Source: Promethearchaeota archaeon
Lineage (GTDB): Archaea; Asgardarchaeota; Lokiarchaeia; Sigyniarchaeales; SOKP01
Direction of reading: 5' to 3'
Assembly (NCBI GenBank): GCA_016926735.1
Contig: JAFGOA010000021.1
Location: 1-35,993 of the forward strand
Length of the DNA stretch: 35,993 nt
A model generated the notes under the pieces. The model did no database searches, was not told where the DNA came from, and worked only from the letters and a program-made list of their open reading frames with translations. How positions within the stretch are numbered: the first letter of the stretch is position 1; every line of letters starts with the position of its first letter. Both the position numbers and the translations under genes were made by a program. Positions 4,849 to 20,229 of this stretch are shown here, in pieces.

Positions 4849-6111
4849 ATGAGATTAGAAAAATGGACAGATATTCTACCAAGATATCAAACATTTCTTA
4901 GTCATATGAAACCTATCCTTAGAGAAACAAGAAGAATTATTGAGGATCTGGACCCTGATCTCTTATATGATCCTGAAGTGTTAGATAAAATAAGAGAAGA
5001 AGAAGAAAAAAGAAATGTAAGAAAAGTTCGAGCTTTATCTGAATTCTCTGCAATGTATAGATCAAATGTATATGAAATTATGAAGGATTTTATCACAAAA
5101 TACAAAGATAGAATTTCTTTAATTGATATAAAAGATTATATAATTGAATTTCTTCAAGAATCTGTAGATGCTTTAGCTATTTTAGGAAATATAACTAATC
5201 CTGATGAACGAAATTTAGAAAATACCTACTTATATAAATTAACTAAATTTATTGAAAATATTTTATTTCCAAGAGGTACATCTTTAAAAAAGATATATGA
5301 AAGATTGCTTGAATATGCACCTCAATTCTATGAATCACAAAGACATATACTTATGTCACACACTCATTATAGAGATGAATTAGAAAACAAGGATTTTTTC
5401 ATTATACCAGGGATGTCTCCCAAAGTATATCAAATTATAAATAATATTACATCGTTATTTAATTTGGATCCTAATTATGGGGATTTTCCCGAAAGAGAAA
5501 ATCATGAAATTCCTTTAATCTTAAAAAATGATGTTTTTTTGCCATATATTGATTCGATCGCTAGTGCCGAAGAAGATGCAATTGAAAAAATTGTTGAAAG
5601 AATAGGTCTAAGAGTAATAGATGGAATTTTCTTAGGTCCTAATGAAAAATTAGTAGATATTCTCTTGGACAATAATTATTTTAGAATAAATAAACAATCA
5701 GATGGGATAAGCAGACTTATTCCTCAATTTAGTAATGAAACACTTATTCTTTATTATTTAGCATTTGCTTCAAAGAGTAGAGGTTTTCTAACAAAAGAAA
5801 TAATTAATTGGATTGCAATGAATTTTGCTTTTTTGATATATATGGGTATTTTGAAATGGAAATTATCTGATGAGAATATTTTTTACGGTATATTTAAAGA
5901 TCTTCAGACAAATGAGAAGGTATTACCTTATTTAATGAAATTGATTTGTTTTCCAAATTATATAAGTTTAGATAAAATGCAAATAAGAGACTCTCCCCAA
6001 TATAGAAAAGAGATTTTTAATTTTATAGGATCACAGATTGATAATATTCAAAATTTAATTGATGAAGTTGGAAATCATTGTCAAAATATCGAAAATGAAA
6101 ATAATAATTAA
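4849..6111 (+). CDS. Unrecognised helical protein preceding the AAA ATPase
   Basis: This is a 420-residue, predominantly alpha-helical protein without recognisable catalytic motifs. An N-terminal charged region includes EVLDKIREEEEKRNVRKVRA. The C-terminal third contains a hydrophobic run (IINWIAMNFAFLIYMGILKW) that could be buried or membrane-associated. GAGGG eight bases before the ATG is one of the best ribosome sites in the cluster. The gene is of similar size and helical character to its upstream neighbour, but I could not align the two convincingly. Position directly before the AAA ATPase suggests a substrate or partner subunit. Function is unknown. Confidence 0.8.
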   Translation: MRLEKWTDILPRYQTFLSHMKPILRETRRIIEDLDPDLLYDPEVLDKIREEEEKRNVRKVRALSEFSAMYRSNVYEIMKDFITKYKDRISLIDIKDYIIEFLQESVDALAILGNITNPDERNLENTYLYKLTKFIENILFPRGTSLKKIYERLLEYAPQFYESQRHILMSHTHYRDELENKDFFIIPGMSPKVYQIINNITSLFNLDPNYGDFPERENHEIPLILKNDVFLPYIDSIASAEEDAIEKIVERIGLRVIDGIFLGPNEKLVDILLDNNYFRINKQSDGISRLIPQFSNETLILYYLAFASKSRGFLTKEIINWIAMNFAFLIYMGILKWKLSDENIFYGIFKDLQTNEKVLPYLMKLICFPNYISLDKMQIRDSPQYRKEIFNFIGSQIDNIQNLIDEVGNHCQNIENENNN

Positions 6112-19509: not shown

Positions 19510-20229
19510 ATGTCTGAAAATTTAATATGTGGAATTGATGAGGCCGGGAGATCCAATTACATCTCGTAATAAAACCCCAAAGGCCCTGTCTTTGGTCCAA
19601 TGGTATTATGTGGTGTATGCTATAATGCATCTGAATTACAATATTTAAATGATATTGGTGTAAGAGATTCTAAACAACTTACTCCTAATAAAAGAACAAA
19701 ATTAGCTACCTTAATAAAAAAAAAATGCATTGGTTTTAAGGAGGTTCATGTATCCTCTGAAGAGATAGATAATCGAGAAGTAAGTAATATTTCATTAAAT
19801 CAACTTGAAGTTAATAAAATAGTTGAAATAATTGATACTTTGGAGCCAGATATTATATATATCGATGCTGCAGATGTAAATGAGGAAAGATTTGGTCAAA
19901 ATATTGAAAAACTTTTATCTTACAAACCAAAAGAGATAATATCTAAGCATAAAGCAGATGAAATTTACCCCATTGTATCTGCAGCTTCAATAATTGCAAA
20001 AACTAGTAGAGATACCGTAATAAATAGTATTAGAACTATTAATATAAATGATGGGCATGGAGATATCGGATCTGGATATCCTTCTGATAGAAAAACAACA
20101 GAATTTTTACGAAATTGGATAAAAAAATATAAAAAAGTTCCAGATTTTGCAAGAAAATCTTGGAAAACAACACAAAGAATCATAGATGAAGAATTAAATA
20201 ATAAAAAGATAACTGAATTTTTTAGCTAA
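19510..20229 (+). CDS. rnhB: Ribonuclease HII, interrupted by a 30-base stop-containing insert
   Basis: RNase HII cuts the RNA strand of RNA-DNA hybrids and removes single ribonucleotides from DNA. From ATG 19510 the frame reads MSENLICGIDEAGR, the N-terminal active-site motif with its catalytic Asp-Glu. It then runs into TAA TAA and resumes in the same frame as GPVFGPMVLCGVCY, completing the family signature GIDEAGRGPV(x)GP. The remainder is normal: VRDSKQLTPNKR, YIDAADV (third acidic residue), IVSAASIIAKTSRD and GSGYPSD. An ORF starting at 19600 alone would lack the catalytic Asp-Glu. Removing 19552-19581 gives 229 residues, a typical archaeal length. Its stop lies one base from the stop of the convergent fibrillarin gene. 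Confidence 0.88.
19552..19581 (+). other. 30-base in-frame insert with two stop codons in rnhB (candidate mini-intron)
   Basis: Codons GGG AGA (19546-19551) and GGC CCT GTC (19582-19590) would join to give the invariant GRGPV. The 30 bases between them read TCC AAT TAC ATC TCG TAA, then TAA and AAC CCC AAA. A one-base left shift of both boundaries (19551-19580) is equivalent. GAGAT (19548-19552) pairs with ATCTC (19561-19565), and GGCC on each flank (19542-19545, 19582-19585) is self-complementary. Two consecutive stops make simple readthrough implausible. Confidence 0.75.

Follow-up and report, generated by a model that had tools for sequence, protein, structure and literature searches.

How an RNase HII could be made from the rnhB gene of a Lokiarchaeota genome (G000; 3.88 Mb, 99% complete, 238 contigs) is the question raised by the window, i.e. 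the whole stretch of 35,993 nucleotides that was analysed. The frame of this gene reads GIDEAGR, then SNYIS-stop-stop-NPK, then GPVFGP, with the same frame kept throughout, which confirmed the description in an earlier note of a 30-base insert, with two TAA codons, splitting the RNase HII motif. That note had proposed a very small intron in an archaeal mRNA, and the conservation, covariation and empty sites described below support this proposal.

Deletion of the 30 bases led, as had been claimed, to a restored gene: the 229-aa product covered profile positions 1-199 of PF01351 as one stretch and scored 221 bits against the NCBIfam equivalog TIGR00729 (cut-off 123). In a Pfam profile search of the whole genome this rnhB was the single PF01351 match, and a second intact copy, which the earlier note would have counted against its reading, was not found in G000. 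In two relatives a second RNase HII-like match was observed within long open frames of ~560-590 aa (G026:C18:144667-145191 and G140:C9:18861-19388). The rnhB exons evolve under purifying selection, with a dN/dS of median 0.18 and maximum 0.40 over 467 pairs (0.21 for the window compared with the sister genome G001), and the remaining gene is intact, in keeping with the lack of pseudogene decay already pointed out.

We placed exon 1 at 19510..19550 on the + strand, an open frame that runs from the ATG to the AG of an Arg codon (13 codons and two bases), and exon 2 at 19581..20229 (+), an intact frame up to the stop codon. Because an A stands both in front of the insert and at its end, the insert may be placed at 19552-19581 or, one base further left, at 19551-19580. 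In one relative (L030), with the sequence GGGAGT TAATAG at this point, the Arg codon is kept only by the left-shifted cut, AG/T at the 5' end and AA/A at the 3' end (the slash marks the cut). The L030 junction and the cleavage rule of bulge-helix-bulge (BHB) introns agree, and the predicted intron, a 30-nt BHB intron present in 35 family genomes, is therefore 19551..19580 (+); the length given in the earlier note stands, and its position, 19552-19581, lies one base too far to the right.

Comparison of the same locus in relatives, which had been advised, was done by a Pfam search later widened to 228 genomes; among the matches listed, in-frame stops inside rnhB were present in many genomes of the same family and in none of the order's other families. 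A covariance model found the insert in 35 of 65 family genomes, at one locus per genome and with E <= 7.4e-12, and the exact empty site was found in at least 23. All extracted inserts sit at GR/GP and, in the family, each contains an in-frame stop, and the sequences have diverged; the length is 30 nt with the sole exception of a 28-nt copy (L047) that breaks the frame. Chance is excluded by the recurrence of the insert, once per genome and always at one and the same codon, in 35 genomes of the family. On the rnhB tree, where the family clade is well supported, 10 changes of the intron-state label were needed compared with 30.8 for shuffled labels, a pattern that suits an old intron gain followed by repeated clean losses, change counts alone being unable to tell gain from loss.

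An insert was also found at the same codon in 3 of 42 rnhB-bearing genomes of one order of Thermoplasmata. These putative BHB introns of 43 nt (L008, 2939-2981), 37 nt (L123, 394-430) and 38 nt (L124, 964-1001) break the frame and have perfect central helices, in which GGGU pairs with GCCC or GCCU, as well as intron stems of 7 bp with compensatory changes. The Thermoplasmata rnhB genes form a separate supported clade in the tree; therefore two separate uses of the site, an ancient intron or a transferred one would explain the pattern. Apparently the same rnhB codon has been used in parallel by two phyla.

The rnhB inserts share a layout of 1+9+5+9+4+2 = 30, with a common plan: a tetranucleotide in exon 1, AG/N, a 9-nt arm, a 5-nt loop, a second 9-nt arm, a tetranucleotide pairing with that of exon 1, and NN/A. 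The 28-nt copy has 8-nt arms, one base fewer in each, and in the L042 intron the two arms differ in length. Across the 30 distinct rnhB copies, 87.7% of cells were paired compared with 75.7 after shuffling, with 33 double changes (8.4 shuffled) and a covariation score of 0.402 (0.194 shuffled), a value reached by none of 500 shuffles and falling to 0.06-0.09 when the register was slid. The central helix, four base pairs between two 3-nt bulges, was 91.6% paired with compensatory changes. A cut between bulge bases 2 and 3, i.e. AG/A and NN/A in rnhB, restores the frame. RNAalifold, to which the plan was not supplied, recovered the intron hairpin together with an exon-exon outer helix that has one-base bulges and with which the 3' bulge becomes 4 nt long.

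In the window (all + strand), the 5' strand of the central helix is CGGG of exon 1 (19545..19548) and the 3' strand is CCCC of the intron (19575..19578). The 5' bulge AG/A occupies 19549..19551, with a predicted cut after 19550, and the 3' bulge AA/A occupies 19579..19581, with a predicted cut after 19580. The intron hairpin at 19552..19574, with arms 19552-19560 and 19566-19574 and loop 19561-19565, covaries and is 85.9% paired among relatives. A possible exon-exon outer helix, irregular, spans 19537..19591 (19537-19544 with 19583-19591) in both RNAalifold and the single-segment fold; relaxed BHB forms occur among known introns (PMC6379350). The window copy is structurally among the weakest, with 3 of 4 pairs in the central helix and 6 of 9 in the arms. 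A segment of 58 nt took the BHB fold, and the copy on its own in 99 nt gave a different one, no better than shuffles (z -0.16), so that the comparative evidence is needed. As regards the outer helix, all of 23 distinct intron copies carry GAG, compared with 12 of 17 empty ones, counts that come from related and hence not independent genomes.

Low-scoring matches of the rnhB model to other loci revealed further inserts in protein genes. In G000, the AMP phosphorylase gene carries a 30-nt insert at DKHS/TGGVPG (C50:76347-76376, L201 16347-16376, + strand) in which all 13 pairs are formed; after splicing in silico the product scored 578.6 bits (cut-off 535), and the gene of a relative (G139, L183) is interrupted at the same codon. 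A DeoC-family aldolase gene on the - strand (L200) contains two, of 30 nt (C50:42770-42799) and 32 nt (C50:42170-42201), at DHG/YF and GVD/MGRN. A MoxR-type ATPase gene has a 30-nt hairpin insert in its Walker A region (C235:10263-10292, L186 964-993, - strand), and such an insert is also present at L187 1000-1029 (+ strand); the central helix of these moxR introns does not fit the standard register. Besides rnhB, three or more protein genes of G000 are interrupted by mini-introns of this kind, and a stop-containing hairpin insert at GYGGP/PPSGTHRY of a PEBP-like gene (~C50:5,627, L198 about 5627-5656, + strand) is probably another. In relatives, rps3 has two inserts in each gene (L177, L184), with an insert at the GxxG of the KH domain; rpl11 is interrupted at two positions in different genomes, one gene having a second insert (L176, L185); and dnaG has a mini-intron (L175). 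Pyruvate kinase (L178) carries 31 nt whose G/TT junction restores LGVEIP, and a Mg-chelatase-like ATPase (L179, L180) carries 32 nt whose G/AG junction restores NPEEGELRP. The cut rule of rnhB also restores the AMP phosphorylase, aldolase, rps3, rpl11, pyruvate kinase and Mg-chelatase-like frames. Aligned jointly, the introns of six genes gave a covariation score of 0.723, compared with 0.232 shuffled and at most 0.16 when slid, in an alignment whose AMP phosphorylase (G000) and aldolase introns came from a structural scan, which favours pairing. The mini-introns all lie in highly conserved motifs, which may partly reflect how they were recognised.

From the sequence data, we consider it very probable that the rnhB pre-mRNA contains, in this insert, an archaeal BHB intron that is removed by EndA, the tRNA-splicing endonuclease. 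The exon 1 CGGG would pair with the CCCC near the intron 3' end, the two bulges would flank this central helix and the intron itself would form a hairpin. EndA, of the alpha/beta type and with a relaxed-specificity loop, would cut both bulges after base 2, and an RNA ligase, RtcB in most relatives, would then join AG to A, so that the essential GRG motif regains its AGA codon; cleavage and ligation are the steps that we infer.

An explanation at the level of translation would be programmed bypassing, in which the ribosome hops over the 30 bases with the help of the hairpin. Bypassing elements such as phage T4 gene 60 and the byps of yeast (Magnusiomyces) mitochondria are short stop-containing hairpin inserts in otherwise intact genes. 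The hairpin within the rnhB insert and the selection on the gene are both in agreement with a hop, which would also tolerate insert lengths not divisible by three. However, a hop in L030 would give Ser (AGT) in place of the GRG Arg, and the GTT codon of pyruvate kinase and the GAG codon of the Mg-chelatase-like ATPase arise only from joined RNA; codons built from both exons in these three cases argue for joining at the RNA level and against hopping. Moreover, the take-off and landing codons are unmatched (AGA and AAA in the window) and the covariation extends to the pairing of exon 1 with the intron 3' end, in the BHB register. Bypassing elements are retained in the mRNA and, unlike the rnhB insert, need neither exon-intron pairing in this register nor the rebuilding of split codons. 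We regard bypassing as very unlikely.

As to which nuclease would remove a BHB intron from the rnhB mRNA, two EndA-family genes were found in G000, coding for a catalytic alpha subunit of 203 aa on C33 and a structural beta subunit of 202 aa on C100, the latter without the catalytic histidine in an alignment to 1a79. The 203-aa protein aligned best to the catalytic subunit of Aeropyrum pernix EndA: its K61-P62-R63 match K44-P45-R46 in the loop specific to Crenarchaea, the lysine-loop signature of crenarchaeal enzymes with relaxed specificity, and the part played by these residues in such recognition is discussed in PMC12397907. The two sequences suggest an EndA of the (alpha-beta)2 type. Of the 58 genomes searched for RtcB, 51 have it, among them the sister G001 of the same genus. 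Whole-genome searches did not find it in G000, G005 and G013, three fairly complete genomes, which may reflect either an assembly gap or a different ligase. In G000, 13 of 49 tRNA matches are 97-105 nt long, in agreement with tRNAs that have short introns. Many tRNA genes of this genome (e.g. L159-L167) exceed the standard length by 25-30 nt, and in one (L161) the D arm is apparently interrupted, i.e. by a non-canonical intron.

Removal by another route, through an unknown nuclease or a ribozyme rather than EndA, would fit the failure to find RtcB in G000, the irregular outer helices and the moxR introns off the standard register. Against it, the geometry and the cut positions match BHB introns, and the insert gave no Rfam match at the gathering threshold; introns of 28-32 nt are also too short to hold a group I or group II ribozyme. 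A self-splicing intron of group I or group II was rejected on this length, 30 nt here, and on the Rfam result, and we judge a route other than EndA to be very unlikely.

The two in-frame stop codons could by themselves indicate a decaying pseudogene or, if read through, a protein with ten additional residues. This is extremely improbable for the sole rnhB of its genome, which is under selection as strong as that given above (dN/dS 0.18) and interrupted at the same site in 35 genomes; inserts of 28, 31, 32, 37, 38 and 43 nt moreover break the frame, so that readthrough cannot help. The assembly artefact against which the earlier note had warned, or an artefact of binning, has a negligible probability even though most genomes compared are probably metagenome-assembled, since diverged copies stand at the same place in 35 independent assemblies, two of them single-contig (G143, G144), and a second archaeal phylum has the insert too.

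The number of such introns in the genome was approached by scans covering 435 kb (~11%), from a genome sample with 399 kb of stretches. A mechanical BHB and ORF scan of the 435 kb gave 35 candidates compared with 28-42 in slid registers, i.e. no overall excess, and for this reason only candidates confirmed by a protein motif were kept. The 222 candidates of a split-gene scan with a coding score were rejected as mostly ordinary gene boundaries, and that scan therefore gives no density estimate. A generic model (R2), searched against the whole genome, recovered rnhB, AMP phosphorylase and moxR; it missed the aldolase intron because scoring was limited to 150 candidates. The two matches with the lowest scores, L216 and L217, resemble uninterrupted coding sequence. 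Four genes per 435 kb, the PEBP-like case included, suggest tens per genome, as an extrapolation and not a count. It is likely that each Lokiarchaeal genome has tens of BHB mini-introns of ~30 nt in its protein genes, at highly conserved motifs of housekeeping proteins (those of the ribosome, DnaG, and enzymes of glycolysis and of nucleotide salvage). Some genes would have two, and a relaxed EndA would splice them all, as a spliceosome-independent system of mRNA introns that gene callers would take for frameshifts.

BHB introns in archaeal protein-coding sequence were previously thought almost absent. If mRNA splicing is required to make ribosomal proteins, primase and metabolic enzymes, the annotation of Asgard genomes is affected through apparent frameshifts and missing genes, and the tRNA-splicing endonuclease would be central to mRNA maturation in relatives of eukaryotes. 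The conserved positions, the at least 23 empty sites and the codon apparently used in parallel by two phyla also make the gain and loss of introns accessible to study here. A literature search on Asgard, Lokiarchaeota and rnhB, with most subscription papers and preprints outside its reach, turned up no description of BHB introns from protein-coding genes of these archaea.

Among known systems, the archaeal tRNA introns, including non-canonical ones and those of the intron-rich tRNAs of Atabeyarchaeia and Freyarchaeia (PMC11291895), are likewise BHB substrates but interrupt tRNAs and not ORFs; the rnhB-intron model picked up some tRNA introns in the same family (L181, L182). The HVO_1309 BHB intron of Haloferax volcanii is similar in that an mRNA is processed by EndA at BHB sites, and differs in lying in the 5' UTR, outside the coding sequence (PMC7714728). 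Archaeal pre-mRNA splicing had been confirmed, by cDNA, for cbf5 only (PMC2738675), again stated in 2020 to be the only such report apart from the Haloferax 5'-UTR intron (PMC7714728). The cbf5 introns of Desulfurococcales and Sulfolobales resemble those described here: they are protein-coding BHB introns, often unconventional, cut between bulge bases 2 and 3, situated in a catalytic codon, gained once and lost several times in their lineage, and associated with a hetero-oligomeric EndA (PMC2738675). Unlike them, the introns proposed here lie in another gene and another phylum, are very uniform at 28-32 nt and would be spliced as predicted from sequence, and the Lokiarchaeal mini-introns, of which a gene has up to two, are spread over nine or more gene families within a single archaeal family.
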